NCBI GenBank assembly: GCA_021795965.1
Contig: JAJYOU010000014.1
Location: forward strand, 1 to 64,000
Reading direction: 5' to 3'
Source: Chloroflexota bacterium
Lineage (GTDB): Bacteria; Chloroflexota; Anaerolineae; Anaerolineales; Villigracilaceae
DNA: 64,000 bases
Shown: positions 20,597 through 49,585 of the stretch, in pieces
Numbering within the stretch: the stretch's first letter is position 1
Layout: each line of letters begins with the position of its first letter
The notes under the pieces: generated by a model
Databases searched by the model: none
Seen by the model: the letters and a program-made list of their open reading frames with translations, nothing else
Told to the model about the DNA's origin: nothing
Program-made: the position numbers and the translations under genes

Positions 20597-21727
20597 ATGA
20601 ATAAAAAGATTGCCTACGTTTTAGGTATGATCACCCTCATAATTGGTCTCTGGGGATTTTATGATCGCTTTGCTTTTGGACATGAAAACGCTGCGTATGG
20701 TTCATATGTATCCTGGGGGCTGTGGGTGGCGTTGTATTTCCTCTTTGGCGGGATTGCGGTTGGATGCTTCATCTGGGCCAGCCTCGACCTCCTCTTTGAG
20801 GTTCCCGCTCTAAAAGGAACCGGTCGCATTGCCCTCTGGGCGGCACTGGTCGACCTGGGAGTGGGGTTGTTGGCGATTGGTCTTGATCTCGGTCATTTCG
20901 AACGCTTTTACAAAGCTTTTACAAATCCCAACTGGACATCCGGCGTGATTGAAGATGTCTGGGGGTACACCATCTTTGGAATTTTGACGGTGTTGGCCCT
21001 GATCTTTTCCATTAATCAGAACAAATCGGTCGCGTTAAAAGTTGTCATGATCCTTGGCTTGATTACCGCTATTTTTGCCGCGGCTGCGCCTGGCAAGATG
21101 CTGGGGATGGACGCTTCGCGCATGTTCTGGCATTCCTCTTTGCTGCCCGTCCAGTTTATTTTCCTGGCATTGACGAATGGCGCTGCAATGCTGCTGGTCA
21201 TCCGCGGTTTCTTCGTCTCACCGGCTGAAAATGAAAAACCCTTCTCCATTCTGAGCATAAGCCTGGTCGGTTTGCTGGCTTTTAATCTTTATTTTGTCTA
21301 TCTTTTCTTCTCGCAGGGGCTTTCAGGCAGAATACCTGATATTGTCCAGCCGGTTAATGCGATATTGAATGGGCAGTACAGCCTGCTCTTCTGGGGCGTC
21401 CAAATTGTGCTTGGCGCCATCCTGCCCATCATCATCCTCACTCAACGCAAGTTGGCGGGGAGCGGAGCCCTGGTCGGGCTGATGGGTCTGTTGGTGCTGC
21501 TTGGCAATGCTGTCGCCCGCTACCTGATCGTCGTTCCCGCTCAGCAAGTGGAATTTCTGCCAAATCTTTCGACCGCATTCTCCGGGCGCGGACTGAACCT
21601 GGCATACATGCCAAGTGCGACTGAATGGGCAGTGGCATCTGGTCTACTGGGCGTGGTCATTCTCGGCATGCTGGTGGGAGCTGATTTCATCCTGCCGCTC
21701 GTTTCGAAATCTCATAAGGAGGCCTAA
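20597..21727 (+). CDS. ttrC: NrfD/PsrC-type quinol-oxidising membrane anchor, TtrC type
   Basis: A 376-aa polytopic membrane protein of the NrfD family that takes electrons from menaquinol and hands them to the Fe-S subunit. About nine to ten hydrophobic helices are visible, from MITLIIGLWGFYDRF near the N-terminus to GLLGVVILGMLVGADFIL near the C-terminus. Helix FFLFGGIAVGCFIW-like and DLGHFERF segments agree with the family. The ATG follows a strong TAGGAGG site 9 bp after ttrB. Its stop is 1 bp before the ATG of the A subunit, so the three genes are one unit. Confidence 0.85.
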   Translation: MNKKIAYVLGMITLIIGLWGFYDRFAFGHENAAYGSYVSWGLWVALYFLFGGIAVGCFIWASLDLLFEVPALKGTGRIALWAALVDLGVGLLAIGLDLGHFERFYKAFTNPNWTSGVIEDVWGYTIFGILTVLALIFSINQNKSVALKVVMILGLITAIFAAAAPGKMLGMDASRMFWHSSLLPVQFIFLALTNGAAMLLVIRGFFVSPAENEKPFSILSISLVGLLAFNLYFVYLFFSQGLSGRIPDIVQPVNAILNGQYSLLFWGVQIVLGAILPIIILTQRKLAGSGALVGLMGLLVLLGNAVARYLIVVPAQQVEFLPNLSTAFSGRGLNLAYMPSATEWAVASGLLGVVILGMLVGADFILPLVSKSHKEA

Positions 21728-21728
21728 C

Positions 21729-24700
21729 ATGACGGAGCCTACTTCCAAAAAACAAGAAATTTCCCGCCGTGATTTTCTCAAAATTTCCGGTGTCACGGGT
21801 GCGACCGCTGCACTGCTGGGGAATATGCACGAGGTATTTGCCAAAACCCAAAATACACTGGCTGCATCCGGGGAAGGCAGTTACTTCCAGGCCAGCCCGG
21901 AAAGTATCATCTACGGCGAGTGCCTGCAGTGCAACACGCAGTGTACCGTCAAAGGCAAAATTCAGGATGGTGTTTTGGTGAAGGTGGATGGCAACCCCTA
22001 CAGCCCGAACAACATGATGACCCCGCTGGCGTATGACACTCCTCTCAAGGAATCCGCGCTGGTCGATGGCAAGCTCTGTCCCAAGGGACAGGCCATGGTC
22101 CAGACGCAGTATGACCCGTACCGCATCGTCAAGGTTTTGAAGCGCACCGGCAAACGCGGCGAAAACAAGTGGCAGGTCATTCCATTCGATCAAGCCATCA
22201 ATGAAATTGTCAACGGCGGGAAGCTCTTTGCGGATGCCGGCGAAGACCGCGTGGTGCCAGGTTTCAAGGATGTGCTGGCAACCAAGGATGCCAAGGTAAT
22301 TTCCGGTTTGAGCGCGGATGCTGCGGCTGTGACAGGCGGCAAGATGAAATTGGATGAATTCAAGACCAAGCACGCCGCCGAACTTGACCTGTTGATTGAT
22401 CCTGAGCACCCAGACCTGGGTGTCAGGAACAACCAGTTTGTCTTCCAGGCTGGACGTATCGAGCCGGGGCGCAACAACTTTGCCCAACGCTTTACGCTTA
22501 ACTCTTTCGGATCAAAGAACTGGTACGATCACACGACCATTTGCGAGCAATCCCATCACATCGGCTACACCTACGCAACCGCGCAGTATTCAGGCGGCAA
22601 ATGGGCGACTGGACCGAATCACATGAAGCCCGATACGATCAATTCCGAGTTCGTGATCTTTTGGGGCACCAGTCCTTTTGAAGCTAACTTCGGACCAACC
22701 ATCATGAGCGAAGCCGTGACCAAAGCCGTGGTTGAACATGGTCTCAAGTATGCGGTTGTGGATCCGCGCATGTCAAAGACCGCCGCCAAAGGTTGGTGGG
22801 TACCGGTTCAGCAAGGCGGCGACCTGCCGCTGGCACTGGCGTTGATCCGCTGGATTTTTGAGAACCAGCGCTACGATACCAAATTCCTTTCCTCTGCCAA
22901 CAAGGCAGCCGCACTGGCTGCAGGTGAAAAATCCTGGACGAACGCCACCTGGCTGGTCAAGCTGGATGACAAGGGTCACGCGGGAACTTTCCTGCACGGT
23001 TCTGATCTGAAGCTGGTTGAGAAAAAAGATGAAACATCTGCGGATGGCAAAACGGTCACGACGACCTGGGTTACCCCCGACGGCGTCGTTTTCAAGATTG
23101 ATCCTTTTGTTGCATTGACCGCAGGCAGCCCCGTATTGGTTGACCCGGCAGACGATAAAAACTCCGTCACTGGCGACCTGCTGGTGAAGACGGCGGTGCA
23201 GGGAATCAACGTCGAAAGCAGCCTGCAATTACTCCTGGATGAAGCCTCTGCACAGTCGATGGAAGATTGGGCAAAACTGGCTGGCGTGGATTTAAGCACC
23301 ATCACCCGCCTGGCTGATGAATATACCTCCCACGGCAAGAAAGCCGGCGTCGAGTTCTATCGCGGTGCGGTTCAACACACCAACGGTTATTACACCGCTC
23401 AAGCACTGGTTGCGCTCAACATCCTGATTGGAAATATTGACTGGAAGGGTGGTTTGAGCAAGGGCGGCGGTGGTTGGAATGCCATTGGGAATGCGGATAA
23501 GCCCTTCGACCTTGGTGCAGATCATCCCGGCAAGCTTGGTGCATTTGGCATCAAGGTGACCCGCGAAGGTGATACGTATCAGAAAACAACTCTCTTCACG
23601 GATTATCCTGCGAAACGACCGTTCTATCCTTACACCAGCAACGTCTACCAGGAAATCATCCCTGCCGCTTACGCGCAGTACCCGTACCCGGTCAAAATCT
23701 TGTGGCTGCACATGGGCACACCTGGTCTTGCAGCTCCTGCCGGCACTGAACAAATCAAAATGTTGCAGGATACTGATAAGTTCCCGCTCTTCATCGCGGA
23801 TGATATCGTCATTGCTGAAACTTCGATGTACGCCGATTACCTCTTCCCTGACCTGACATTTGTCGAACGCTGGGCTTTCACCAGCGCACCTCCGCCTGAA
23901 CCGATCAAGAATATCCGTGTGCGCCAGCCAATGACTGCGCCAGTGCCAGAGATTGTCAAAGTGGACGGCGAAGAAATGCCAATTTCAATGGAAGCCATCA
24001 TGATCGCCATTGGCAAAGCGCTTAATTTGCCGGGTATTGGCAAGGGTGGATTCGACAAGCACGGCGACCTCAACCGTCCTGAAGATTACTACCTTCGCGG
24101 TGTTGCCAATATCGCCTTTGGCGACAAGAAAGATGCTGCAGACGCTGTAAAGGATGCGGACGACGCCGAAATGGAAATTTTCCGCAAGGCGCGCGCTCAC
24201 CTGCCCAAAGCCGTTTTTGACGAGCAAAAATGGGTGGCTATCGTTGGTGAATCACTCTGGCGAAAAGTCGTCTATGTGCTTAACCGGGGTGGACGTTTCG
24301 ACTCGCCCGCGAACAGCTATTCGGGTGCATTCCAGGCTCATCCCTTCGCTTCTCTCATGAACATCTTTGTCGAACCGATCGGCAGCGGAATAAATAGCAT
24401 TACCGGCAAACCTTTTAGCGGCGTCCCGCACTATGAACCCGCCCAAAACAGCACCGGCGTGCCTGTGAATAACAAGGACTACCCATTCTCGGTCGTCACT
24501 TACAAGGAGGTCGTTGGCTGTCAAACTCGCACCATCAGTAATTATTGGACGCAGGGCGGCACGGGCATCGTTCCGACCAACCATGTGCTCATCAATCCCG
24601 TGGATGCCAAACCGCTTGGATTGAAAGACGGCGATGTTGTGAAACTAACATCGAGTACCAATCCGAATGGAACATTCGACCTGGGGAACGGTCATGTGGA

Positions 24701-24965
24701 AACTGTAAAGGGTCAGGTCAAAATGACGCAAACAGCCCGCCCAGGTTCCGTTATGGTTTCGTTCCACTTTGGTCACTGGGCATACGGCGCGCGCGATGTG
24801 GTCATCAACGGTCAAACCGTCAAAGGGGACCCGCGCCGCAACGTTGGAGTTTGCTCGAACCCCGTCCTTTTGCTCGATGAAGGCACGAAAACCACCTGCC
24901 TGACCGATCCAATCGGTGGCAGCGCCAGCTTCTATGATTCGAAAGTGAAACTAGTCAAGCTCTAG
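21729..24965 (+). CDS. ttrA: Molybdopterin oxidoreductase catalytic subunit, TtrA-like
   Basis: Catalytic subunit of a DMSO-reductase-family enzyme, about 1078 aa, that probably reduces tetrathionate or a related oxyanion outside the membrane. The track start (21615) lies inside ttrC. The ATG at 21729 is chosen because it follows AAGGAGG and gives a perfect Tat signal, SRRDFLKIS. A [4Fe-4S] motif follows (CLQCNTQC ... CPKGQ). A candidate Mo-ligand Cys is in DHTTICEQSHH. The length fits TtrA/SrrA-type enzymes. Order B-C-A and the adjacent TtrSR-like regulators favour tetrathionate; arsenate or selenate reductase cannot be excluded from sequence alone. Confidence 0.82.
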   Translation: MTEPTSKKQEISRRDFLKISGVTGATAALLGNMHEVFAKTQNTLAASGEGSYFQASPESIIYGECLQCNTQCTVKGKIQDGVLVKVDGNPYSPNNMMTPLAYDTPLKESALVDGKLCPKGQAMVQTQYDPYRIVKVLKRTGKRGENKWQVIPFDQAINEIVNGGKLFADAGEDRVVPGFKDVLATKDAKVISGLSADAAAVTGGKMKLDEFKTKHAAELDLLIDPEHPDLGVRNNQFVFQAGRIEPGRNNFAQRFTLNSFGSKNWYDHTTICEQSHHIGYTYATAQYSGGKWATGPNHMKPDTINSEFVIFWGTSPFEANFGPTIMSEAVTKAVVEHGLKYAVVDPRMSKTAAKGWWVPVQQGGDLPLALALIRWIFENQRYDTKFLSSANKAAALAAGEKSWTNATWLVKLDDKGHAGTFLHGSDLKLVEKKDETSADGKTVTTTWVTPDGVVFKIDPFVALTAGSPVLVDPADDKNSVTGDLLVKTAVQGINVESSLQLLLDEASAQSMEDWAKLAGVDLSTITRLADEYTSHGKKAGVEFYRGAVQHTNGYYTAQALVALNILIGNIDWKGGLSKGGGGWNAIGNADKPFDLGADHPGKLGAFGIKVTREGDTYQKTTLFTDYPAKRPFYPYTSNVYQEIIPAAYAQYPYPVKILWLHMGTPGLAAPAGTEQIKMLQDTDKFPLFIADDIVIAETSMYADYLFPDLTFVERWAFTSAPPPEPIKNIRVRQPMTAPVPEIVKVDGEEMPISMEAIMIAIGKALNLPGIGKGGFDKHGDLNRPEDYYLRGVANIAFGDKKDAADAVKDADDAEMEIFRKARAHLPKAVFDEQKWVAIVGESLWRKVVYVLNRGGRFDSPANSYSGAFQAHPFASLMNIFVEPIGSGINSITGKPFSGVPHYEPAQNSTGVPVNNKDYPFSVVTYKEVVGCQTRTISNYWTQGGTGIVPTNHVLINPVDAKPLGLKDGDVVKLTSSTNPNGTFDLGNGHVETVKGQVKMTQTARPGSVMVSFHFGHWAYGARDVVINGQTVKGDPRRNVGVCSNPVLLLDEGTKTTCLTDPIGGSASFYDSKVKLVKL

Positions 24966-30324: not shown

Positions 30325-30380
30325 TAGAAGCCCCGCAGGTTTGTCAATCCTATATCCAATTAATAATGGGAGAATTTATG

Positions 30381-31223
30381 ATGATAGGCTCTGCTTTTCC
30401 CGGCAATTCAGATCTGACTGAGATTGCCCGAAACGTAAGGATTAATATCATCCGCTCGGTCCATCACGCTAAAGGTGGGCATTTGGGGGGGCCGTTTTCA
30501 GCAGTAGAACTCTTGGTAAGCCTGTATTTTCATGAATTACGGATCGATCCCCAAAACCCGTCCTGGGAAGAGCGCGACCGGTTTATCCTCTCCAAGGGTC
30601 ACTCAGCCATCGGTCTTTATGCCGTCATGGCAGAGCGCGGCTTTTTCCCAAAAGAAGAATTGATGACCTTTGATGCGATCGATTCGCGCCTCCAGGGTCA
30701 CCCGGATATGACGAAAACGCCGGGAATTGATATGTCAAGTGGATCCTTGGGTCAGGGGCTCTCAGCAGGGATTGGCATTGCTCTCGGCGCGCGAATGCTT
30801 GGAAAAGATTGTCGCACCTACGTCATGATTGGGGATGGAGAAGCGCAGGAAGGACAAATTTGGGAAGCAGCTTTCATCGCCAGCCGATACAAATTGGATA
30901 ATCTCGTCGCAATTTTGGATAACAACAAGGTGCAGCAATTTGGCTGGCAATATCCCATGCCTTTGCCACCCATCGATCATCCTGCCCAAAAGTTTGAAGC
31001 ATTCGGTTGGAATGTGATTGAAATTAATGGGCACGATTTCAAGGAAATCCTGGATGCTTTTGCGGCGGCGAAAAAGGTAAAAGGAAAACCAACCATCATT
31101 ATTGCCAATACGATCAAAGGCAAGGGCATCTCGTTCGCTGAAGGCAAGTATCAATGGCATGCCCGGGTTCCAAATGACGAGGAACTCGCTCAAGCCCTGG
31201 TCGAATTGGAAAAAGCTGGCTAA
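30381..31223 (+). CDS. Transketolase, N-terminal (ThDP-binding) subunit
   Basis: About 280 aa, the first half of a split transketolase. The ThDP/Mg site GDGEAQEGQIWEAA ... LDNNKVQQFG and the N-terminal HHAKGGHLGGPFSAVELL are clear. The start at 30381 is chosen over 30366 because GGGAGA sits 7 nt before it. It is the first gene of the island and needs the next gene as its partner. Split transketolases occur in specialised routes for unusual ketoses (for example apulose-4-phosphate or sulfosugar pathways), which is why the substrate may not be xylulose-5-phosphate. Confidence 0.9.
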   Translation: MIGSAFPGNSDLTEIARNVRINIIRSVHHAKGGHLGGPFSAVELLVSLYFHELRIDPQNPSWEERDRFILSKGHSAIGLYAVMAERGFFPKEELMTFDAIDSRLQGHPDMTKTPGIDMSSGSLGQGLSAGIGIALGARMLGKDCRTYVMIGDGEAQEGQIWEAAFIASRYKLDNLVAILDNNKVQQFGWQYPMPLPPIDHPAQKFEAFGWNVIEINGHDFKEILDAFAAAKKVKGKPTIIIANTIKGKGISFAEGKYQWHARVPNDEELAQALVELEKAG

Positions 31224-31248
31224 AAAAATTAACCCAAAAGGATAAGAC

Positions 31249-32193
31249 ATGGAAAAAGTTCTGGCTCAACGCGATGTCTTTGGTGAAACTCTGGTGGAAT
31301 TAGCCCACCAGGATCCGCGGATTGTCTGCCTGGATGGCGATCTTTCGACTTCGACCCGAGCCGATCTCATGTTCGAAGCCTATCCTGAGCGATTTCTGCA
31401 GATGGGTATTGCCGAACAAAACATGTTTGGGGTTGCCGCCGGCATTGCCACGATGGGATTTATCCCATTTATCAGCACATTTGCGGTTTTTGCAGCCAAA
31501 CGGGCTTTGGACCAGATTCGGATTGTGATTGCCCAGCCTGGTTTGAACGTGAAATTTATCGGTGCTTACAGTGGAATCCTGACCGGGAAAACCGGGAAAA
31601 CTCATCAAGCGATGGAAGATCTAACCGTATTTCGTGCCATGCCGAATGTCGTCAGCATTGCCCCGATCGATGGCGTTGAAGTGAGGGCGGCAATGCGGGC
31701 AATGGTTGCCTACAACGGGCCGGTTTACCTGCGCCTGACACGCGACCCAATGCCAATCATCATGGCTGAAAATTACGAATTCAAGATTGGCAAGGCAATT
31801 GTTTTGCGCGAAGGTCACGATATCAGCCTGATCGGCACCGGCGAACAAACTCAGCGCTGTCTGGAAGCAGCAAAACTGTTGGCTGAAGAAGGCGTTCAAG
31901 CGTATGTCCTGCATGTTCCCACTTTAAAACCCCTCGATAACGAAGCAATTGTGAAGGCCGCCTCCGCCACCGGGCTGGTGGTGACCGCTGAAGATCACAG
32001 CATTTTGGGTGGGCTGGGCGGCGCAGTTGCAGAAGTTTTGGGAGAAGAATACCCGGTTCGGATGAAGCGTGTAGGGGTCAAGGACACCTTCGGAGAATCT
32101 GCTCCCAATGGTCCATTGCTGGAAAAATACGGGCTGACCCCACGCCACATCGTCGAAGCAGCTCACACGTTGCTGAATTATCGGAAATCCTGA
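31249..32193 (+). CDS. Transketolase, C-terminal subunit
   Basis: A 314-aa second half of the split transketolase: the pyrimidine-binding domain (VCLDGDLSTSTRADLMFEAYPERFLQMGIAEQNMFGVAAGIA, with the catalytic Glu in GIAEQNM) followed by the C-terminal transketolase domain (LIGTGEQTQRCLEAAKLLAEEG). It starts 25 bp after the N-terminal subunit with an AAAGGATAAG ribosome site. Together the two make a full enzyme of about 595 aa, shorter than the one-piece transketolase at 61487, and are not derived from it by simple splitting. Confidence 0.92.
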   Translation: MEKVLAQRDVFGETLVELAHQDPRIVCLDGDLSTSTRADLMFEAYPERFLQMGIAEQNMFGVAAGIATMGFIPFISTFAVFAAKRALDQIRIVIAQPGLNVKFIGAYSGILTGKTGKTHQAMEDLTVFRAMPNVVSIAPIDGVEVRAAMRAMVAYNGPVYLRLTRDPMPIIMAENYEFKIGKAIVLREGHDISLIGTGEQTQRCLEAAKLLAEEGVQAYVLHVPTLKPLDNEAIVKAASATGLVVTAEDHSILGGLGGAVAEVLGEEYPVRMKRVGVKDTFGESAPNGPLLEKYGLTPRHIVEAAHTLLNYRKS

Positions 32194-32224: not shown

Positions 32225-33073
32225 ATGACTCAACCACCAAGTTCCATCCAACCCTGTTTTCACACCTTCGCTTACGGTTCATTCTCTCGCTGGGCGCCAT
32301 GTTACCCGTTGGAAGAAACCATTTCCCGGCTGGCTCAGATTGGATATCCCGCGATTGAGATCGGTGCTGCTCGACCGCATGCCTGGCCCTGGGATTTGGA
32401 CCAGGCAGATCGCGCCAAAATCCGAACATTGCTGCATGAAAAAAACATGACAGCTGCTTCCATTTGTCCAATCAGCCATAATTACAATTTAGCCAGCGCT
32501 ATTTCACACGAACGTCTTGACGCAGTGGCTTACTACCAGGAATGTGTCAAGCTCGCTGCTGATTTTCACGCCCCACTGGTGATCGTTGTCCCCGGATGGA
32601 GTATGTTCGGGACGGAGTACGCGCAAGCCTGGGATTGGAGCCGGGACGGAATTGCGGAAATTGCCAAATTGGCAGATCAATTGGGGGTCATGCTGGCAGT
32701 TGAACCGATCACCAAGGCGATGGTCAACCTGGTGAACACTACCCATCAAGGTTTGGAATTAATCAAAGAAATAAACAACCCCGCAGTCAGGTTAATCCTG
32801 GATACGGCTCATATGATGATGGAAAAAGAAAGCCCGATTGATGCGGTCCTGGAAGCACGCGGATACCTGGTACATGTCCATGCTGAGGATTCAGATGGGC
32901 GCTCAATGAGCCGCCGTCCTCCAGGGAAAGGCGATTTCAACTGGATCGGGTTTGTTAGAACTTTGCGGGAAATTGGTTACCAGGGATATTTATCGGCAGA
33001 AATTTTTGGCTCGGACCCTGATAAATCAGCCAGCGACAGCCTGCTCGGATTGCAGCAACTTCTCACAAAATAA
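32225..33073 (+). CDS. TIM-barrel sugar (phosphate) isomerase/epimerase
   Basis: A 282-aa protein of the xylose isomerase-like / AP endonuclease 2 TIM-barrel superfamily. Metal ligands can be seen in VEPITKAMVN, LILDTAHMMM, VHVHAEDSDG and YLSAEIFG. Members include IolE, hydroxypyruvate isomerase and tagatose/apiose epimerases or isomerases, and I cannot assign a substrate. Position directly after the split transketolase suggests it makes the ketose used by that enzyme (inference). Confidence 0.85.
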   Translation: MTQPPSSIQPCFHTFAYGSFSRWAPCYPLEETISRLAQIGYPAIEIGAARPHAWPWDLDQADRAKIRTLLHEKNMTAASICPISHNYNLASAISHERLDAVAYYQECVKLAADFHAPLVIVVPGWSMFGTEYAQAWDWSRDGIAEIAKLADQLGVMLAVEPITKAMVNLVNTTHQGLELIKEINNPAVRLILDTAHMMMEKESPIDAVLEARGYLVHVHAEDSDGRSMSRRPPGKGDFNWIGFVRTLREIGYQGYLSAEIFGSDPDKSASDSLLGLQQLLTK

Positions 33074-33117: not shown

Positions 33118-34002
33118 ATGCAGAGTAAATTAGTATCTGTGCAGGACGCGACCAAAACAATTCAATCAGGCTCCAAATTGACCATTGGTGGAAACACCAT
33201 CCGACGCCATCCATTGGCGCTGGTGAGAGAAATTATCCGCCAGGGAATCAAAGACCTGACCCTATATGTGTGGGTGGCTGGGATTGATGTGGATATGCTG
33301 GTTGGTGCTGGTTGTGTCCGGCGGGTTGAAGCCGCCTATGTGGGCATGGGACCTCTCGGGCTGGCATCCAACGTCCGGAGAGCCATCCAGGAAGGCAGAA
33401 TTGAATATGAAGATTTTAGCGAATCGTCCATGCTGGCTCGACTTCGAGCTGCAGGGATGGGACTGCCTTTCCTGCCAACGAAAGTATTAATGGGGACAAG
33501 CCTGGCAGATCACGCAAGCCATGCCAAGCCGATCATCTGCCCATTTACTGGCGAACAACTTTACGCTGTCTCGGCTGCAAAAGCAGATGTCGCAATCATG
33601 CACGGCTATTACGGTGATCAATATGGGAATATCCAGTGGCCACTCCTGCGGGATTCCGATGATATCGACACGGTGATTGCCAAATCTGCCGATCGCGTCA
33701 TTGTTTCAGTCGAACAAATTATTAATCCTCAAGCAGTGCTGACAAACTCAACCATGACCTATATCCCCCACAACTGGGTTTCCGCAGTGGTGGAAACACC
33801 TTTTGGTGCGCATCCCGGATCATGCGATGGTATTTACGATCCAGATATGAAACACCTTGAAATTTATTCTGAAGCCGCAAAATCTGACCTCACGTTTAAG
33901 AAATATTTGGATGAGTACGTCTTCGGATCCGCCGAAGAATTCGATTATCTTGAAAAAGCGGCTGGCTTGGCGCAATTACTCTCTCTACGGGTGAACCGTT
34001 AG
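33118..34002 (+). CDS. CoA-transferase-fold alpha subunit, pair 1 (GctA/IpdA-like)
   Basis: A 294-aa alpha subunit of the class I CoA-transferase fold. Features: SGSKLTIGGNTIRRHPLALVREII, a glycine-rich VGAGCVRRVEAAYVGMG segment and YEDFSESSMLARLRAAGMGLPF. The track start is a TTG; the ATG at 33118 is preferred because GGAGG lies 9 nt before it. It pairs with the next gene, whose product lacks the catalytic Glu of transferases, so the pair may be a hydrolase or lyase like IpdAB rather than a transferase. Confidence 0.83.
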   Translation: MQSKLVSVQDATKTIQSGSKLTIGGNTIRRHPLALVREIIRQGIKDLTLYVWVAGIDVDMLVGAGCVRRVEAAYVGMGPLGLASNVRRAIQEGRIEYEDFSESSMLARLRAAGMGLPFLPTKVLMGTSLADHASHAKPIICPFTGEQLYAVSAAKADVAIMHGYYGDQYGNIQWPLLRDSDDIDTVIAKSADRVIVSVEQIINPQAVLTNSTMTYIPHNWVSAVVETPFGAHPGSCDGIYDPDMKHLEIYSEAAKSDLTFKKYLDEYVFGSAEEFDYLEKAAGLAQLLSLRVNR

Positions 34003-34023
34003 GTTTAGGGAAGGGACATCAAC

Positions 34024-34821
34024 ATGACTGAATATACACTCAACGAACTGATGGCGGTGAATGTTGCACACCAGCTGCGTGATAACGAAATGGGTTTTAT
34101 TGGAGTTGGAACTGGAGGGCGCGCTTTTACAATGGCTGTTGGGCTCCCGATTGTTGCAGCACGGCTGGCGCAGCTCACCCATGCTCCAAATTTTACCGTT
34201 CAAATTGGCACCATCATCAGTCCAGATTTAAAGAAAATTCCGCGGGAATTCACTCAAAGCACCCTCACCTCCTGGCCGACCGCGGCGCGAATTCGAGCTG
34301 ATGATAACCTGGATATGTTTGTCAAGGGCAAGGTGGATGTGGGTTTTATTTCAGGCGCGCAGATCGATCAATATGGCAACCTGAATATCACAGCGATTGG
34401 GAATTATATCAAACCTAAAGTCAGGCTGGTAGGCTGCCTTGCCCTGCCGGAGCACCAGGCTTTCGCCCAACGGACATTCATCATCACGGATCAAAATAGC
34501 CGCACATTTATTGAAAAAGTTGATTTCGTAACCGGTGTGGGTTGGAATGTGAACGGGAAGACCCGCAAGGATTTAAATTTACCGGGGGGCGGTCCCACCT
34601 TCGTTTTTACAGACCTGGCTATTTTTGATTTCAACGCAGAAGGGCACCGGATGCAGGTGGCTTCAATTCATCCCGGTGTAACGCCCAGCGAAGTTCAGGA
34701 AAAAACGGGCTTTCCCCTGGAGTTCCCCAAGAATATTCCAGTGACAACAGTACCAACCGCCGAGGAAATTCGCCTCATTCACGATGAGATCGACCCAGAG
34801 AACATTTTACTTAAATACTAA
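34024..34821 (+). CDS. CoA-transferase-fold beta subunit, pair 1, catalytic Glu missing
   Basis: A 265-aa beta subunit. The family fold is evident from GFIGVGTGGRAFTMAVGLPIVAARLAQ and VDVGFISGAQIDQYGNLNITAIG. The catalytic Glu that forms the CoA thioester in glutaconate-type transferases lies in a YESG motif; it is present in the pair-2 subunit. Here the aligned stretch is HAPNFTVQIGTIISP, with Gly62 in place of Glu. Related IpdAB-type hydrolases also lack it. The substrate is unknown. It is coupled to the alpha subunit by a 21-bp gap. Confidence 0.83.
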   Translation: MTEYTLNELMAVNVAHQLRDNEMGFIGVGTGGRAFTMAVGLPIVAARLAQLTHAPNFTVQIGTIISPDLKKIPREFTQSTLTSWPTAARIRADDNLDMFVKGKVDVGFISGAQIDQYGNLNITAIGNYIKPKVRLVGCLALPEHQAFAQRTFIITDQNSRTFIEKVDFVTGVGWNVNGKTRKDLNLPGGGPTFVFTDLAIFDFNAEGHRMQVASIHPGVTPSEVQEKTGFPLEFPKNIPVTTVPTAEEIRLIHDEIDPENILLKY

Positions 34822-34842: not shown

Positions 34843-35745
34843 ATGTTAAATTCACGAATTCTATCTTTAGAAGAAGCAGCAGCCAGCATCCCGGATAAAT
34901 CTGTAATTACCATGGGCGGTTTTGGAGTTTTTCTCCAACCCATGGCAATGGTTCGTGAAATGATTCGTCAGGGGAAGAAGGATATCAGCCTGTTATCAGT
35001 GGGAGAAGCTTATGCAGGCGATCTCCTGATTGGAGGAGGCTGTGTCAAACGGATCGCACTTTCATCCTTCGGGTTTGAAGCGGTCACCGGACGCGCCCGC
35101 AATTTTTGCAAAGCTGTAGAACAAGGCAAGGTTGAAGTAGAAGATTACAGTCATTTCTCAATGGCATCCCGGCTGATGGCTGGGGCAATGGGGCTTCCTT
35201 TTGCAGCAGTAAATTCTCTGCGGGGTTCCGATTTGCTCGAAAAGATCGTCTATGAGAAGAAATTTGAAAAAATGAAAAGTCCATTTTCAGGAGAGGAAGT
35301 CATCCTGCTTCCATCCGCCAATCCTGAAATTGCCATTATCCAGGCACAGCGGGCAGATTCTGAAGGGAATATCCAGGTTTTTGGTCCGACCATTAGTATT
35401 GAGCAGCAGGCAAAAGCATCCAAACGAGTGATCGCAATTGTTGAAGAGATCGTTCCCCGTTCCACCATTCAATCCACCCCGAGCGCAACGCTCCTTCCTT
35501 CCTTATTTGTAGATACGCTGGTTGTGCTGCCTTACAGCGCCCATCCAATGTCATCTTATGGATATTATGACTACGACCTGGAGCATATCTATACCTATAC
35601 TAATGCGTCCAAGACTCCTGAAACCTGGAAAAAATATTTGGATGAATATGTGTATGGTCCGAGTGACCACTTTGACTACCTTAAACGTATCGGCGGTCTG
35701 AGAAAAATCATGAAGTTGCGTGCTGACCCTTTGTTGGGATATTAA
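34843..35745 (+). CDS. CoA-transferase-fold alpha subunit, pair 2 (GctA-like)
   Basis: A 300-aa paralogue of the pair-1 alpha subunit (similar MVREMIRQGKKDISL, GGGCVKRIALSSFGFE and VEVEDYSHFSMASRLMAGAMGLPF). Its C-terminus, KKYLDEYVYGPSDHFDYL, nearly repeats KKYLDEYVFGSAEEFDYL of pair 1, so the two pairs arose by tandem duplication. With a beta partner that keeps the catalytic Glu, this pair is the likely real CoA-transferase of the island. Confidence 0.85.
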   Translation: MLNSRILSLEEAAASIPDKSVITMGGFGVFLQPMAMVREMIRQGKKDISLLSVGEAYAGDLLIGGGCVKRIALSSFGFEAVTGRARNFCKAVEQGKVEVEDYSHFSMASRLMAGAMGLPFAAVNSLRGSDLLEKIVYEKKFEKMKSPFSGEEVILLPSANPEIAIIQAQRADSEGNIQVFGPTISIEQQAKASKRVIAIVEEIVPRSTIQSTPSATLLPSLFVDTLVVLPYSAHPMSSYGYYDYDLEHIYTYTNASKTPETWKKYLDEYVYGPSDHFDYLKRIGGLRKIMKLRADPLLGY

Positions 35746-35761
35746 GGATGGAGCAAAGACG

Positions 35762-36538
35762 ATGACATCACAAACACCATTCTACACTTATGACGAAATC
35801 ATGCTTTGTGTGGCTTCAGCACAAATCCTCGACCGGGAAGTTGCCCTGATCGGAACCGGTTTACCAATGTTGGCAGCAACCCTGGCGAAGCATACTCATG
35901 CAGCCAACGCGGTCATGATTTACGAATCCGGATTGATTGATACGAATCCAATCGAGGTGCCGGTCAGTGTCGCTGATCCGAGGATTATGTTTGGCACCAC
36001 TACTTTTGCCAGTCTCTACTCAACCCTGGGGCTGCTCCAGCGGGGTGTGATTGATGTTGGATTCCTGGGCGGGGCAGAGGTGGATCAATTTGGAAACATG
36101 AATGCCACTGCCGTCGGCGATTACACCCATCCCACCTTACGCTTGCCTGGCAGCGGTGGTGCGAATGATATCGCCAGTTTGGCTAACCGGGTCATCATTT
36201 TGATGAAACATGAGAAGCGCCGCTTCCCCATTAAGGTAAGCTACAACACCAGTCCAGGGTTCTTAAATGGAGGTAACTCCCGCAAGGAAGCTGGTCTCAA
36301 AGGCGGTGGTCCCAGCAAGCTAATCAGTGACCTGGCAGTGATGGATTTTGAACCTGGAAGTCACCGGATGAGAGTGCGTTCCATTCATCCGGGCATCACC
36401 CGCGAGCAAATCCAGGATTCGACCGGGTTTGATCTGCTCTGGGCAGAAGATTTGAATGTCACAACTGCCCCCACAAAAATTCAACTTGAAATCATTCACC
36501 AATTGGATCCCAAAGGGATCTTCCTTAAGAACAATTAA
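35762..36538 (+). CDS. CoA-transferase-fold beta subunit, pair 2, catalytic Glu present
   Basis: A 258-aa beta subunit with HAANAVMIYESGLIDTNP; Glu55 in YESG corresponds to the catalytic Glu of glutaconate-type CoA-transferases. The ATG at 35762 is chosen instead of the upstream TTG at 35720, which lies inside the alpha gene. The enzyme would move CoA between a donor acyl-CoA and an acid intermediate, producing the substrate for the acyl-CoA dehydrogenase encoded next. The acid is unknown; 3-hydroxypropionate made from malonate semialdehyde is one option. Confidence 0.85.
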   Translation: MTSQTPFYTYDEIMLCVASAQILDREVALIGTGLPMLAATLAKHTHAANAVMIYESGLIDTNPIEVPVSVADPRIMFGTTTFASLYSTLGLLQRGVIDVGFLGGAEVDQFGNMNATAVGDYTHPTLRLPGSGGANDIASLANRVIILMKHEKRRFPIKVSYNTSPGFLNGGNSRKEAGLKGGGPSKLISDLAVMDFEPGSHRMRVRSIHPGITREQIQDSTGFDLLWAEDLNVTTAPTKIQLEIIHQLDPKGIFLKNN

Positions 36539-36555: not shown

Positions 36556-37692
36556 ATGTACATTTTATCTGACGCACATCGAGAACTTCGTGACCATACC
36601 CGGTTTTTGGTCGAAACCTATATTGAACCCAGGGCAAATGAGATCGACAGAAGCGGTGAATATCCACACGATGTAATCAAGGCATTGGCGCAGGAAGGGA
36701 TTCTAGCCCTTCCCATTCCAAAAGAATACGGTGGAGATTACCGGGATATTCTTTCCTGGTTCATTGTCATGGAAGAAGTCGGAAGGGCGTGCGGGACTAC
36801 CGCGAACATCCTTGCGAGCCATTCGCTCTGCGCGTATGTGATTGAAATTTCCGGTACCGAGGAACAAAAACATCGATTCCTGCCAGATCTTGCCTCCGGA
36901 AAGATGATTGGTGCGATGGCAATGACCGAATTAAATGCTGGTACTGATTCAGGAGCGATTGAAAGTTCGGGCATCCATCGCGAGGATGGAAAATGGGTTC
37001 TGAACGGCAGGAAAGTGATGATCGCGAGCGCCGGTGAAGCGGACCGGTACATCATCATGATCAAGACGGATCCCAGCAAGGGTACCCGCGGAATTAGCGC
37101 ATTCCTGGTTGATAAAGGAACCCCAGGCTTGTCCTTTGGAGCGCGGTACGAAACAACCGGTTTACGCGGTTTATCGGTCGGAGAGGTCGTGCTGGAAAAC
37201 TGTGTAGTCCCCGGGGATCGCCTGATCGGTGCTGAAGGAGGTGGTTTCAAAACCATCATGAAATCTCTGGATCGCACCCGCCCAGCTGTAGGCGCAATGG
37301 CAGTCGGTCTGGCTCAAAAGGCGATGGAATTGGCGATTGTACGGGCAAAAGAACGGCAGCAGTTTGGCTTGCCCCTGGCAGACCAGCAAATGGTTCAAGC
37401 GAAGCTGGCAGATATGGCATGCCAGGTGGATGCTGCCCGTTTACTGGTATATCACGCCGCAGCCCAGCGCGATTCAGGTGTTGAGCGCTTCACGCGTGAA
37501 TCAGCCCAGGCGAAACTTTTCGCTTCAGACGCAGCCATCTCAATTGCATCTGAGGCTTTGCAAATCTTTGGTGGATGGGGTTATATGCGCCAATATCCTG
37601 TTGAGAGGTTGTGGCGCGATGCCCGTGCTCTGCAGCTTGCAGATGGGTCGAATGAAATATTGCGAGTGGTGATTGCCCGATCGTTACTCTAA
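36556..37692 (+). CDS. Acyl-CoA dehydrogenase-family flavoprotein
   Basis: A 378-aa FAD enzyme with the usual three domains. Signatures: AMTELNAGTDSGAIESSG (FAD/acyl binding), LNGRKVMIASAGEADRYIIM, RTRPAVGAMAVGLAQKAME and QIFGGWGYMRQYPVERLWRDARAL. The C-terminal segment reads LADGSNEILRVVIAR where most members have Y/L-E-G-S/T, so the usual catalytic Glu is Asp363. This could lower or change activity. In an anaerobe it may work in the reducing direction with an electron carrier, but no etfAB genes are in the window. Confidence 0.87.
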   Translation: MYILSDAHRELRDHTRFLVETYIEPRANEIDRSGEYPHDVIKALAQEGILALPIPKEYGGDYRDILSWFIVMEEVGRACGTTANILASHSLCAYVIEISGTEEQKHRFLPDLASGKMIGAMAMTELNAGTDSGAIESSGIHREDGKWVLNGRKVMIASAGEADRYIIMIKTDPSKGTRGISAFLVDKGTPGLSFGARYETTGLRGLSVGEVVLENCVVPGDRLIGAEGGGFKTIMKSLDRTRPAVGAMAVGLAQKAMELAIVRAKERQQFGLPLADQQMVQAKLADMACQVDAARLLVYHAAAQRDSGVERFTRESAQAKLFASDAAISIASEALQIFGGWGYMRQYPVERLWRDARALQLADGSNEILRVVIARSLL

Positions 37693-38095: not shown

Positions 38096-38902
38096 ATGAA
38101 TTTAAGAAAAAGTTATTCTCCATCAACAGGACTGACAGAAGTCGTTGCAAACTCAGACGGCTTAAAAAGTTTGAGGATGAGTGTTTTGCGCCTGGCTCCG
38201 GGCGACGTATTTAAAGGAAAGACCAGTGGTGAAGAAGCAGCCTTCGTTCTCCTGAGCGGAATCTGCACGGTCATTTGTGGCTCCAAGACCTTTCAGAATA
38301 TCGGAGGACGGCGCGAAGTATTTGATGGACCTGGTTTTACGGTGTATTTGCCGGCTGAAAGCGAATATGAGGTGACAGCTCAGACTTGGATGGAAGCAGC
38401 ATTGGGATTCACACCTGCCAAACAGGCTGGGGAAGCCCTTCTCATCCGCCCTGAGAACGTGGTTTTGAGTTCGCGCGGCACCCGAAATTGGCGCAGGGAT
38501 ATCTGGGATGTGATTGCGCCCGATTTTCCCAGCCAGCATTTGATTGTGGTTGAAGTGATCACCCCCCCCGGCAACTGGTCCAGCGTCCCGCCCCATAAAC
38601 ACGAGGAGGATAATTTACCCACAGAGATTTATCAGGAGGAAATATATTTTTACAGGTTAAAGCCTTCGCAAGGATTTGCAATGCAGAGGATTTATACAGA
38701 CGATGGCTCCCTGGATGAAGCAGTTGTTGCTAAAAATAATGACGCTGTTATTGTTCCCAAAGGTTACCATCCGGTAGCGGTTGCCCCGGGTTATGTTTGC
38801 TATTATCTAAATTTCTTATCCGGCAAACTAAAAGGGATGGCACCCAAGGATGACCCTCAACATACATGGCTCAAGTCTTTTGAGGCGATCGACAGGGAAT
38901 GA
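38096..38902 (+). CDS. iolB: 5-deoxy-glucuronate isomerase (IolB)
   Basis: A 268-aa bicupin of the IolB family, which converts 5-deoxy-D-glucuronate to 2-deoxy-5-keto-D-gluconate in inositol breakdown. The C-terminal signature is strong: TPPGNWSSVPPHKHEEDN, EIYQEEIYFYRLKPSQGFAM, NNDAVIVPKGYHPVAVAPGY and YYLNFLSG. The metal-binding His-x-His and Glu are visible. It acts just ahead of IolC, encoded 9.7 kb downstream in the same island. No IolD or IolG is seen, so its substrate must arrive by another route or from elsewhere in the genome. Confidence 0.87.
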   Translation: MNLRKSYSPSTGLTEVVANSDGLKSLRMSVLRLAPGDVFKGKTSGEEAAFVLLSGICTVICGSKTFQNIGGRREVFDGPGFTVYLPAESEYEVTAQTWMEAALGFTPAKQAGEALLIRPENVVLSSRGTRNWRRDIWDVIAPDFPSQHLIVVEVITPPGNWSSVPPHKHEEDNLPTEIYQEEIYFYRLKPSQGFAMQRIYTDDGSLDEAVVAKNNDAVIVPKGYHPVAVAPGYVCYYLNFLSGKLKGMAPKDDPQHTWLKSFEAIDRE

Positions 38903-38936: not shown

Positions 38937-40439
38937 ATGACAGACGAAACCTTACTGCTCGAAATGAAAGGGATTAACAAATTTTTTCCGGGTGTGCATG
39001 CTGTTCAAAATGTTGATTTCGAACTCCGAGAAGGTGAAATTCATGCCCTGGTTGGAGAAAATGGGGCAGGCAAATCCACCTTGATGAAAGTGCTTGCGGG
39101 AGTTCACCTTCCTGAATCTGGCGAGATTTGGATCCATGGAGCGCAGATCAACGTGGATTCTCCTGCAACGGCTCTCAACGCTGGCATCGCGATGGTTCAA
39201 CAGGAATTGAAACTAGCCAATGCCTTAACCGTGGCTGAAAATATATTTTTAGGGCATTACCCTAAGAATCGTTACGGCCTGGTGGACTGGAAAATATTGG
39301 AACAAAATGCTGTTGGAGCATTGGCAAATCTCAATATCACGATGGATGTAAAACGCCTGGTTTCCAACCTCTCCGTGGCAGAAATGCAGCTGGTGGAAAT
39401 TGCGAAGGCGTTGATCAAGGACGCAAAGATCATCATCATGGATGAGCCTTCAGCGGTCCTGACGCCCCATGAATTAAATCAATTATATAAAACCTTGCGG
39501 GAACAACGGGCACGGGGTGTTTCAATTATTTACATTTCCCACCGCCTTGAAGAAATATTTGAATTGGCTGACCGGGTTACGATTATGAAGGATGGCTCCA
39601 AAGTGATCGACCTTGATGTCGCCTCCACCAACAAATTTGAGATTGTCAAGCTCATGGTGGGTCGTGAACTTGGCAAGAATTACCCTTCACGAACCAACAA
39701 GGTTGGTGAGCCGGTTCTCGAACTCAGGAATGTTACCAGCAAACCAAGGGTTCAAAATGTAAGTTTTACGCTGCATCGAGGCGAGATTCTTGGACTGGCG
39801 GGTTTGATCGGCGCGGGCAGGTCAGACCTGGCGAATGTCATTTTTGGCGTCGATCCACTTGAAGGCGGAGAAATCCTTATTCGTGGAGAAACGGTCAAAA
39901 CGGCTTCGCCCCAGGATGCGATGCGCAAGGGCTTGGGATACGTCACTGAAGATCGCAGACGGACCGGTTTATTCGGAATCATGACGGTTAGAGAAAACAT
40001 CACAATCACTAACCTCAAGAAATGTACCCGGGCTGGTTTTCTCAACCTCAAGCGCGAATATGAAATTGTTAAAGATTTAATAAAACGACTGCGAATTGTG
40101 ACTCCTACGTCTGATCAAATCGTCCAAAATCTGAGCGGTGGAAATCAACAGCGGGTTCTCCTATCCAAATGGATTAACACGGATTCGGAAATTTTTATCA
40201 TCGACGAACCGACCAGGGGAATTGATGTTGGCTCAAAGGAAGAATTTTATTTCCTGATGAATGATTTGGTCGCCAATGGGGCTGCGATTTTGATGATCTC
40301 CTCAGAATTACCCGAAATTCTTGGCATGAGTGACAGGATTCTGGTCATGAATCATGGTTACCTGACCGGGGAATTTGATATTAGCGAAGCCACTGAAGTG
40401 AAAATTATGGAATGTGCTGCTCTGGAGATGAAAAAATGA
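38937..40439 (+). CDS. Sugar ABC transporter ATPase, RbsA/MglA type
   Basis: A 500-aa double ATPase of the ribose/galactose-type importer. The first half has Walker A GENGAGKST, LSVAEMQLVEIAKAL and Walker B IIIMDEP. The second half has the degenerate Walker A GLIGAGRSD, then LSGGNQQRVLLSKW and FIIDEPTRGIDVG, typical of RbsA, where only one site is fully active. It is the first gene of the ABC set and overlaps the permease gene by 4 bp (ATGA). Substrate is unknown; carbohydrate or cyclitol is likely. Confidence 0.93.
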   Translation: MTDETLLLEMKGINKFFPGVHAVQNVDFELREGEIHALVGENGAGKSTLMKVLAGVHLPESGEIWIHGAQINVDSPATALNAGIAMVQQELKLANALTVAENIFLGHYPKNRYGLVDWKILEQNAVGALANLNITMDVKRLVSNLSVAEMQLVEIAKALIKDAKIIIMDEPSAVLTPHELNQLYKTLREQRARGVSIIYISHRLEEIFELADRVTIMKDGSKVIDLDVASTNKFEIVKLMVGRELGKNYPSRTNKVGEPVLELRNVTSKPRVQNVSFTLHRGEILGLAGLIGAGRSDLANVIFGVDPLEGGEILIRGETVKTASPQDAMRKGLGYVTEDRRRTGLFGIMTVRENITITNLKKCTRAGFLNLKREYEIVKDLIKRLRIVTPTSDQIVQNLSGGNQQRVLLSKWINTDSEIFIIDEPTRGIDVGSKEEFYFLMNDLVANGAAILMISSELPEILGMSDRILVMNHGYLTGEFDISEATEVKIMECAALEMKK

Positions 40440-41419
40440 AACCAACTGAAACCGAAGTGATTGAATCCCAACAGAGTGCGATTAAATCCTATGGCGTGAA
40501 CGCGCTTAAGATAATCTCTCGTTTTCGTGTCGTTGTTGTTTTCCTGATATTGGTAATCACGAGTTCCCTGCTCTCCGAAAATTTCTTCACGATTGGGAAC
40601 ATCACCAATGTGCTTCGTCAAGCAAGCTTTAACGGCTTGCTGGCGATTGGTCTGACATTCGTCATTTTGACCGCGGGCATTGATCTTTCAGTTGGCTCTG
40701 CTCTTGGTCTCGCGACCATGGTGGCTGGATTGTTGTCTCACCAAAACCCAATCATTCTGATTGGAGCCGCGGTTTTAGCGGGTGCATTGATGGGGTTAAT
40801 CAACGGGGTGACGATCGCCAAGCTCCATATCGAACCCTTTGTGGTAACCCTGGCAACCCTCTCAATCGGTCGTGGTATCGCACTTCTTTTGACAGGCGGT
40901 TACCTGGTTGTGGGAACGACGGCTTTTGTTAGATGGCTTGGCACAGGTTTTGTTTTAGGCGTACCCGTCCCGGTGATCGTAATGGCGATCGGATTTTTTA
41001 TCGCCTATATTGTCCTGCGCTACACACCTTATGGACGCCGAATGTATGCCGTGGGAGCAAACCAGGAAGCTGCCCGCCTGGCTGGTATTGATGTCGATCT
41101 GCATAAAATCTCAGCGTATGTCATCGCAGGAGTGGTGGCTGCCATGGCAGGTGTGATCCTGGTTGGGCGACTCGGTGTATCAGATCCTTTGGCTGGCACA
41201 GGGCTTGAACTGGACGCGATCGCAGCTACAGTCATTGGCGGTACAACGTTTGAAGGTGGCAAGGGCGGAATTGCTGGAACAATTATTGGTGTACTCATCC
41301 TGGCAATGGTCAATAACATCATGAACTTGTTAGGATTTTCTCCTTACGCACAGCAGGTTGCAAAAGGTTTGGTTCTGGCAGCTGCTGTAATTATGAATGA
41401 GTACAAGCGTCGAAGATAA
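40436..41419 (+). CDS. Sugar ABC transporter permease, RbsC type
   Basis: A membrane permease of about 327 aa from the RbsC/AraH family. The segments ILTAGIDLSVGSALGLATMVAG and GVTIAKLHIEPFVVTLATLSIGRG are the family signatures, and RLAGIDVDLHKISAYVIAG is the cytoplasmic loop that contacts the ATPase. The ATG at 40436 is chosen (GGAG 9 nt ahead) rather than the track start inside the ATPase gene. It works with the flanking ATPase and binding protein. Confidence 0.92.
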   Translation: MKPTETEVIESQQSAIKSYGVNALKIISRFRVVVVFLILVITSSLLSENFFTIGNITNVLRQASFNGLLAIGLTFVILTAGIDLSVGSALGLATMVAGLLSHQNPIILIGAAVLAGALMGLINGVTIAKLHIEPFVVTLATLSIGRGIALLLTGGYLVVGTTAFVRWLGTGFVLGVPVPVIVMAIGFFIAYIVLRYTPYGRRMYAVGANQEAARLAGIDVDLHKISAYVIAGVVAAMAGVILVGRLGVSDPLAGTGLELDAIAATVIGGTTFEGGKGGIAGTIIGVLILAMVNNIMNLLGFSPYAQQVAKGLVLAAAVIMNEYKRRR

Positions 41420-41550
41420 TTTAGGAGGATACCAAAAATTTTAATTTTCAGGAGGTGAACGGGAAGAATATGTTTCTGAGACATGTTAGAGATAGCTTTG
41501 TAAATTAATACCTATCCTTGATTTTGTTTGAACATTTGTTGGAGGAAAAG

Positions 41551-42660
41551 ATGAGAAAGAAATGGTTTTTTGTACTAACTGCCTTGGTAATTCTGACCAG
41601 TGTAATTGCAGCTTGCTCACCTGCTGCAACCCAAGCCCCAGCTGCCCCCGCTGCGACTGCAGCTCCTGCGGCGACTGAAGCTGTCGCGGCAACTGCCGCA
41701 CCCGCTGCGACTACTGCTCCCGCGGCTGTTCAAATTCCGGCAGGATGTCCTGCCACTCAAATGACAACCGCTGATGGCAAGCCATGGAGTGATATCACCA
41801 TTGGTTTTTCCGAAGGTGCTGTCGATGGCGTCTGGCGTGTGAAACAGGTTGAATGGTTAAAAGCTGCAGTTGAAGCTTGCGGAGCTAAATTTATTACGAC
41901 TGATGCACAAGGATCCGGCGCTAAGAACCTTTCCGATGTTGAAGATTTGATCTCCAAGGGTGTCAATCTGCTCGTGATCTCTACTTACTTCGCTGACGAA
42001 GTTGTCCCTGGGATCCAGGAAGCCAATGCAAAGGGAATTCCTGTCGTGGTATTAAGCTCCGATCTTGGTCAGGGTGCTGACTATAAGACTTTCATCACCG
42101 TCAACAACCTTGATATTGCACATAATGCTGGCAACTGGGTTCTCGATCATTTCAAAGATGCCGATAAGATTGATATCGTTGAGTTGATCGGTCGTGAAGG
42201 TTCAGTCGCCGCCAAGCAGCGTACTGAGGGATTCCATGCCATTTTGGACAACAATCCCAAGGTTCATTGGGTTGCGAATGTAACCGCCCATTACATGCGC
42301 GCTGAAGCTGTTACAGTCATGGAAGATATTCTCAAAGCCAACCCGGATAAGGGCAGTATCGATGTTGTTTATGCTGCCAATGATGAAATGGCTTTGGGCG
42401 CTGTGATCGCTTTGAAAGAAGCCGGACGCTTGAGTGAAGTCAAAGTTATGGGTATTGATGGCATTCTTTGTGAAGATTACGATGCGATCAAGGCTGGAGA
42501 AATTGCAGTCTCTTACTTCTACCCGAACTTTGCTGATGAGGGTGCTGCCGCTGCGTTTGCGATCCTCGAAGGCAAGCCTGTTGAGAAAAAGGTGATCGGT
42601 CAAACAGTTGCAATCGATTTGAGCAACGTTGACAAATATTACCCAAGATGCGCTAAGTAA
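41551..42660 (+). CDS. Sugar-binding lipoprotein of the ABC transporter, RbsB type
   Basis: About 369 aa. The signal (KKWFFVLTALVILTSVIAAC) ends in a lipobox Cys, followed by a long Ala/Pro/Thr-rich linker (about 45 residues) common in Gram-positive-like and Chloroflexota binding proteins. The body is a type 1 periplasmic-binding fold with SKGVNLLVISTYFADEVVPG, GIPVVVLSSD and YAANDEMALGAVIALKEAG. The ATG at 41551 follows TTGGAGGAAAAG. A stable hairpin follows the gene and may protect its mRNA. Ligand unknown. Confidence 0.92.
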   Translation: MRKKWFFVLTALVILTSVIAACSPAATQAPAAPAATAAPAATEAVAATAAPAATTAPAAVQIPAGCPATQMTTADGKPWSDITIGFSEGAVDGVWRVKQVEWLKAAVEACGAKFITTDAQGSGAKNLSDVEDLISKGVNLLVISTYFADEVVPGIQEANAKGIPVVVLSSDLGQGADYKTFITVNNLDIAHNAGNWVLDHFKDADKIDIVELIGREGSVAAKQRTEGFHAILDNNPKVHWVANVTAHYMRAEAVTVMEDILKANPDKGSIDVVYAANDEMALGAVIALKEAGRLSEVKVMGIDGILCEDYDAIKAGEIAVSYFYPNFADEGAAAAFAILEGKPVEKKVIGQTVAIDLSNVDKYYPRCAK

Positions 42661-48568: not shown

Positions 48569-49585
48569 ATGAAGGAAAAATGGAAATACGACCTGATTAC
48601 GATGGGCAGATCCTGCATTGATTTGTATTCAAATGATTTCGGAGCTCCATTCATCAATATCACAAATTTTGCAGCTTACGTTGGTGGTTCACCGACGAAT
48701 ATTGCCGTCGGTTCAAATCGACTGGGGTTAAAAACTGCACTCTTAACCGCCATCGGGAATGACCCGGTGGGAGATTTTATTCTTAACTTTTTGGAAAAGG
48801 AAGGTGTGGAGACCAAATTCATTCCACGCAAACCCGGCTCCCGCTCAAGCGCCGCATTATTGGGAATTGAACCCCCCGATCGATTCCCCCTGGTTTACTA
48901 TCGCGACAATGCCGCGGACATTCAAATTACGATTGATGACGTGCTGTTAACTCCAATTGAAAATGCCCAGGTCTTTGAAGTTTCAGGAACCGGCTTGAGC
49001 AAAGAACCAGCGCGGAGCGCAACCATGTTTGCCTGCGAACTGGCGCATGCTGCTGGCTGTACAGTGGTGATTGACTTGGATTTCCGGGCAGATCAATGGA
49101 ATGATGTGCGGGCATTTGGAGTCTCAATTCGGGCGCTGTTGCCCCTGGTCGACATCGCCATCGGAACCGAGGAAGAAATTAAAGCTGCCATGTTGATGGA
49201 TGTTTCGAGTGTATCCACCGGCTATTCGCAGATTTCTGCTCCCACCGTCACGGGAAACCTGGAAGCAGCAATTTCAAGCATTCTTAAGCGGGGACCCAAG
49301 ACGGTGGTGGTCAAAAGTGGAGCGCAGGGAGCGACGGTCTACCATTCAGATGGAAAACCATTGCATGTCCCGGGTTTTCCGGTTGAAGTTTTAAACGTAT
49401 TGGGGGCAGGGGATGCCTTTGCCAGCGGTTTTATTTATGGAATTGTGCACAAGTGGGACTGGTACCAGGCGACCCGCATGGGTAATGCCTGCGGCGCGAT
49501 TGTGGTCACGCGCCATGGATGCGCCAATTTCATGGGCTATGAAAAAGAGGTCCTGGAATTTATTGAAAATAATGGAGGCTGGTAA
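48569..49585 (+). CDS. iolC: 5-dehydro-2-deoxygluconokinase-like PfkB kinase (IolC)
   Basis: A 338-aa ribokinase/PfkB-family kinase. The opening DLITMGRSCIDLYSNDFGAPF, then YVGGSPTNIAVGSNRLGL, is characteristic of IolC, and the C-terminal NVLGAGDAFASGFIYG is the PfkB ATP/substrate signature with the catalytic Asp. It phosphorylates 2-deoxy-5-keto-D-gluconate, the product of IolB, which is encoded in the same island. The match of iolB, iolC and a following aldolase makes the branch assignment credible. Confidence 0.87.
   Translation: MKEKWKYDLITMGRSCIDLYSNDFGAPFINITNFAAYVGGSPTNIAVGSNRLGLKTALLTAIGNDPVGDFILNFLEKEGVETKFIPRKPGSRSSAALLGIEPPDRFPLVYYRDNAADIQITIDDVLLTPIENAQVFEVSGTGLSKEPARSATMFACELAHAAGCTVVIDLDFRADQWNDVRAFGVSIRALLPLVDIAIGTEEEIKAAMLMDVSSVSTGYSQISAPTVTGNLEAAISSILKRGPKTVVVKSGAQGATVYHSDGKPLHVPGFPVEVLNVLGAGDAFASGFIYGIVHKWDWYQATRMGNACGAIVVTRHGCANFMGYEKEVLEFIENNGGW

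Follow-up and report, generated by a model that had tools for sequence, protein, structure and literature searches.

The window, a stretch of 64,000 nucleotides from a Chloroflexota bacterium (contig JAJYOU010000014.1), carries two adjacent gene pairs with the CoA-transferase fold, here called pair 1 and pair 2, each with an A and a B subunit. The genes and features considered below are as follows.

30366 to 32193, forward strand: split transketolase, N and C halves as two genes, in the same order in WAS_Bin_31
32225 to 33073, forward strand: xylose-isomerase-like TIM barrel, weakly IolO-like (107 bits versus a cut-off of 300), adjoining pair 1 in WAS_Bin_31 too
33118 to 34002, forward strand: pair-1 A subunit, CoA_trans fold, 294 aa, ATG start (Pfam PF01144, 91 bits)
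33421 to 33423, forward strand: codon of A-Glu102, at the IpdA Glu105 position (alignment to 6co6/6coj)
34024 to 34821, forward strand: pair-1 B subunit, CoA_trans fold without the catalytic Glu, 265 aa (Pfam PF01144, 55.7 bits)
34105 to 34137, forward strand: 11-residue insertion in pair-1 B, residues 28 to 38 (alignment)
34207 to 34209, forward strand: codon of B-Gly62, which corresponds to GctB Glu54, IpdB Gly57, and pair-2 Glu55 (hhalign)
34843 to 35745, forward strand: canonical pair-2 A subunit with His where IpdA has residue 105 (Pfam CoA_trans)
35762 to 36538, forward strand: pair-2 B subunit, canonical, YESG motif, Glu55 codon at 35924 to 35926 (Pfam CoA_trans)
36556 to 37692, forward strand: acyl-CoA dehydrogenase; best NCBIfam model AcrC acryloyl-CoA reductase (379 bits, below the cut-off of 640)
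38096 to 38902, forward strand: IolB, 5-deoxy-glucuronate isomerase, above its cut-off
38937 to 42660, forward strand: ribose-type sugar ABC transporter (ATPase, permease, binding protein)
48569 to 49585, forward strand: IolC, 5-dehydro-2-deoxygluconokinase, above its cut-off

The split transketolase, the TIM barrel, pair 1 A and B, pair 2 A and B, and the acyl-CoA dehydrogenase form one same-strand row, with intergenic gaps of 16 to 44 bp from the TIM barrel onward. Both pair-1 reading frames are intact, and the Pfam CoA_trans model recognizes all four subunits of the two pairs, with pair-1 A and B far above its cut-off of 23 bits. The pair-1 genes are under purifying selection (dN 0.14–0.16 against WAS_Bin_31, with dS saturated). 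Elsewhere in the window, a 669-aa reading frame at 61487 to 63496 matches the N half of the WAS_Bin_31 transketolase (35%), so a full-length transketolase may be present in the window in addition to the split one. At 21615 to 24965 lies a TtrA-like molybdopterin enzyme (470 bits versus a cut-off of 1750), close to a YqeB-like gene and one for a molybdate transporter of the MOT1 type.

The original prediction held that pair-1 B lacks the catalytic glutamate of CoA-transferases and that the pair cannot form a glutamyl-CoA intermediate. The absence was borne out: hhalign places Gly62 on pair-2 Glu55 and also pairs it with the glycine of IpdB, Gly57, which the IpdAB authors equate with GctB Glu54 (PMC5380842). 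MAFFT differs in putting a gap at the glutamate site, flanked by I61 and G62, but no alignment has a glutamate near the site; residues Q60 to T63 contain none, and the first one downstream is E75. In the AlphaFold2 model of pair-1 B, Gly62 directly follows the strand formed by residues 58 to 61. The catalytic glutamate is present in 74 of 90 aligned B subunits and missing from all 13 pair-1-like ones; the only others without it are three IpdB and AibB reference sequences. Because it is absent from every pair-1-like B subunit across three phyla, the loss goes beyond chance. The residue in its place varies within the group (Gly, Asn, or Ala), and an 11-residue insertion occurs in the seven pair-1-like B subunits listed, while GctB, pair 2, and PcaJ-type B subunits lack it. 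In CtfAB, both Glu-to-Ala and Glu-to-Ser mutants are inactive (PMC12400318). With the residue missing and its mutants inactive in CtfAB, glutamyl-CoA chemistry in pair 1 is very unlikely, in keeping with the second part of the claim.

The A subunit supplies a feature that the original prediction did not contain. In the alignment, pair-1 A-Glu102 coincides exactly with IpdA Glu105, which we located as the sole residue differing between PDB 6co6 and the E105A mutant 6coj, and a glutamate occupies this position in 13 of 13 pair-1-like A subunits. A compensating active-site glutamate had been named as evidence that would speak for a transferase after all. An active-site glutamate is indeed present, but it is that of IpdA, and IpdAB showed no transferase activity when assayed with short acyl substrates (PMC5380842).

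Taken as pairs, the two sites are fully coupled. Among 53 complete pairs, which share ancestry and so do not represent 53 independent events, the 13 pair-1-like ones have Glu in A and no Glu in B, and the 40 others have His, Asn, Ser, or Ala in A and Glu in B. Since this coupled signature is common to IpdAB, it argues for pair 1 as an IpdAB-like non-transferase. The Glu-bearing pairs, the L097/L101 lineage apart, form one clade (support 96/95) from which pair 1, IpdAB, and AibAB are excluded, and this placement, together with the inactive CtfAB mutants, likewise argues against transfer. We conclude from the sequences that pair 1 is very probably not a CoA-transferase, and that the parallel with IpdAB, which had been offered as precedent for C–C hydrolases in this fold, is stronger than first noted in view of A-Glu102 and the position outside the Glu-bearing clade. 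The structural comparison with GctAB and IpdAB that had been called for agrees: the AlphaFold2 models (pLDDT 86.7 for A and 86.3 for B) match both folds and that of AibAB, the best matches being GctA 1poi, AibA 5mzw, and IpdA 6con for A, and GctB 1poi, AibB, and IpdB for B. Against an IpdAB-like reading, the closest solved enzyme by overall sequence is GctAB, followed by IpdAB and AibAB; pair 1 groups weakly (57/98) with IpdAB, on long branches, the order outside the Glu-bearing clade being uncertain; and the B position is not invariant.

Pair-1-like pairs form a rare clade found in Chloroflexota, one Lachnospiraceae MAG, and alphaproteobacterial megaplasmids. Clear relatives occur in WAS_Bin_31, where the gene order is the same, in the Lachnospiraceae MAG, in two further Chloroflexota genomes, and on plasmids of Shinella, Azospirillum, and Microvirga; Firmicutes were hardly sampled in this search. 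In a sample of 400 Chloroflexota genomes, a clear pair 1 was present only in G371 and the window genome, with others scoring as pair 2 does. The plasmid and G484 loci also hold pair 1b, a related second pair that has the Glu/no-Glu signature of pair 1. On nine of nine contigs a distinct CoA-transferase of the normal type, either Glu-bearing or class III, is near the pair, and most of these contigs also carry sugar-ABC and ThDP-enzyme genes; LacI regulators and DhaK/DhaL recur as well, and the ABC genes are of the ribose type. The ThDP enzyme is a transketolase in the window and WAS_Bin_31 and a PRK06112-type protein in the alphaproteobacteria; G371 has a different ThDP-family protein, and G484 has E1-like genes. 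Three alphaproteobacterial plasmid loci (L077, L078, and L079) combine two Glu-less pairs with a class III CoA-transferase, a PRK06112-type ThDP enzyme, and DhaK/DhaL, and we found no published description of this catabolic cluster in the literature searched. At two loci the class III genes are unusual: at L002:7340-9085 a single reading frame encodes an ABC permease domain together with a class III CoA-transferase domain, possibly through a frameshift or assembly join, and L095:6178-8928 in G371, upstream of pair 1, encodes two class III domains in one reading frame.

Pair 1 is most likely an IpdAB-like enzyme whose substrate is a CoA thioester that its neighbor produces, and probably one that cleaves a C–C bond, or does something similar, in a CoA-linked sugar breakdown product. 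The recurrence of CoA-transferase, ribose-type ABC, and ThDP-enzyme genes near the pair is what points to a CoA ester derived from sugar. In the mechanism we propose, pair 1 would bind an acyl-CoA whose thioester comes from the true CoA-transferase beside it (pair 2 here, usually class III elsewhere). The substrate would be an acyl-CoA that bears an oxo or hydroxy group and derives from a sugar or cyclitol taken up by the cell, and A-Glu102 would act as general base for its hydrolysis by a retro-Claisen or retro-aldol route like that of IpdAB; in the window, the CoA products may then be taken on by the acyl-CoA dehydrogenase and pair 2. We give an even chance to this full description, a GctAB-fold enzyme that has given up CoA transfer and uses Glu102 to cleave a sugar- or cyclitol-derived acyl-CoA supplied by the adjacent transferase. 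An enolate reaction other than C–C hydrolysis would fit the same two-site signature. That these pairs make up a third Glu-less group of the fold, spread over at least three phyla and cleaving C–C bonds of sugar or cyclitol CoA esters in a CoA-dependent carbohydrate route, is plausible at somewhat below an even chance; our literature searches found no CoA-dependent sugar pathway with these genes.

Other activities known or conceivable for the fold can be set against C–C hydrolysis. AibAB likewise lacks the glutamate (PMC7756340) and is a top fold match, so pair 1 could decarboxylate a beta,gamma-unsaturated or beta-keto dicarboxylic acyl-CoA; we consider this unlikely, as pair 1 has Gly at the AibB Cys position and Glu102 where AibA has Gly. 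CoA transfer by another route, with A-Glu102 as nucleophile or through an internal anhydride as proposed for ThnP, would make use of the acidic residue in pair-1 A, and ThnP, which reportedly has no family I active-site glutamate, moves CoA within one molecule (PMC11659651). This we judge distinctly unlikely given the results for IpdAB (PMC5380842), which has the same glutamate, and for CtfAB (PMC12400318), and given that a separate CoA-transferase is always close to the pair. Pair 1 might instead be an acyl-CoA hydratase/dehydratase or isomerase, such as the 3-hydroxypropionyl-CoA dehydratase needed to link pair 2 to the acryloyl-CoA-reductase-like enzyme. We identified no hydratase between pair 2 and the dehydrogenase, and the operon resembles the CoA-transferase, hydratase, and acryloyl-CoA dehydrogenase of Anaerostipes (PMC8355322). 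Homologous loci in Shinella, however, already carry MaoC-type hydratases. We know of no hydratase/dehydratase or isomerase in the CoA-transferase fold, and find such a role quite improbable.

The original prediction also ventured that pair 1 might open the trihydroxycyclohexanedione ring in place of IolD. In its favor, the window genome has IolB and IolC but no IolD above cut-off, WAS_Bin_31 (G913) has pair 1 and IolB without such an IolD, and G484 has pair-1-like pairs, IolB, and IolC on one contig, again with no IolD above cut-off. G371 and G914 likewise yielded no IolD above cut-off. The absence from the window genome is weak evidence because that genome is only 62% complete. In a draw of 400 Chloroflexota genomes, taken from their identifiers to be the one used for pair 1, 99 had IolB above cut-off, of which 30 had no IolD above cut-off (20 of 78 at a completeness of at least 90%). 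IolB without IolD is thus common, and the gap is not tied to pair 1: 29 of these 30 genomes have no pair 1, the window genome being the exception. Moreover, pair-1 relatives occur in G371 and G914, in which no IolB was found. The chemistry also differs. IolD opens a 1,2-diketone (alpha-diketone) in a ThDP-dependent reaction, and inositol intermediates, its substrate included, have no CoA handle. Because ThDP is needed for this opening, IpdAB-type base or hydrolytic chemistry cannot replace IolD, and pair 1 has the CoA_trans fold only, not the ThDP-dependent acetolactate-synthase-like one. The proposal is therefore not supported, and we regard it as extremely unlikely. The IolN-type diketo-inositol, a beta-diketone, is chemically a better fit for pair 1 than the IolD reaction; we rejected an IolN-like role on it, considered alongside IolO-like genes, whose only links were one IolO-like gene near its cut-off (293.5/300 bits) and, in G371, a dehydrogenase adjacent to pair 1 with weak similarity to IolM.

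CoA-transferase models pick up pair-1-type genes, and most of the plasmid copies that carry an annotation are named CoA-transferase; pathway reconstructions would therefore count a CoA-transfer step that the sequence argues against. Glu in A with none in B offers a simple test for non-transferase members of the fold, and the conserved neighborhood points to CoA-linked chemistry in carbohydrate breakdown.

Among known systems, IpdAB (COCHEA-CoA hydrolase of steroid ring C; 6co6, 6con, and 6coj) shares with pair 1 the fold, the Glu at A-105, and the Gly at the B catalytic site, but identity over the fold matches is 25 to 29%, its gene context is steroid rather than sugar/cyclitol, and hydrolase activity is only predicted for pair 1. 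AibAB (3-methylglutaconyl-CoA decarboxylase; 5mzw), the other known Glu-less member of the fold, has the glutamate replaced by Cys56 (PMC7756340) and combines it with a Gly in A, whereas pair 1 combines B-Gly62 with A-Glu102. GctAB (glutaconate CoA-transferase; 1poi) has the same fold and is the best overall sequence match, but GctB Glu54 and a Gln in GctA stand where pair 1 has Gly62 and Glu102, and GctB lacks the 11-residue insertion. Relative to class I CoA-transferases (GctAB/PcaIJ) in general, pair 1 has the two-subunit CoA_trans fold without the catalytic Glu in B. The inositol-to-propionate branch of Anaerostipes (OxcT, EcdH, and AcaD) resembles the window in joining a CoA-transferase and an acryloyl-CoA-reductase-like enzyme with inositol genes; it differs in having a single CoA-transferase, OxcT, which clusters with propionate CoA-transferases, and no pair-1-like gene appears in the part of its description available (PMC8355322).
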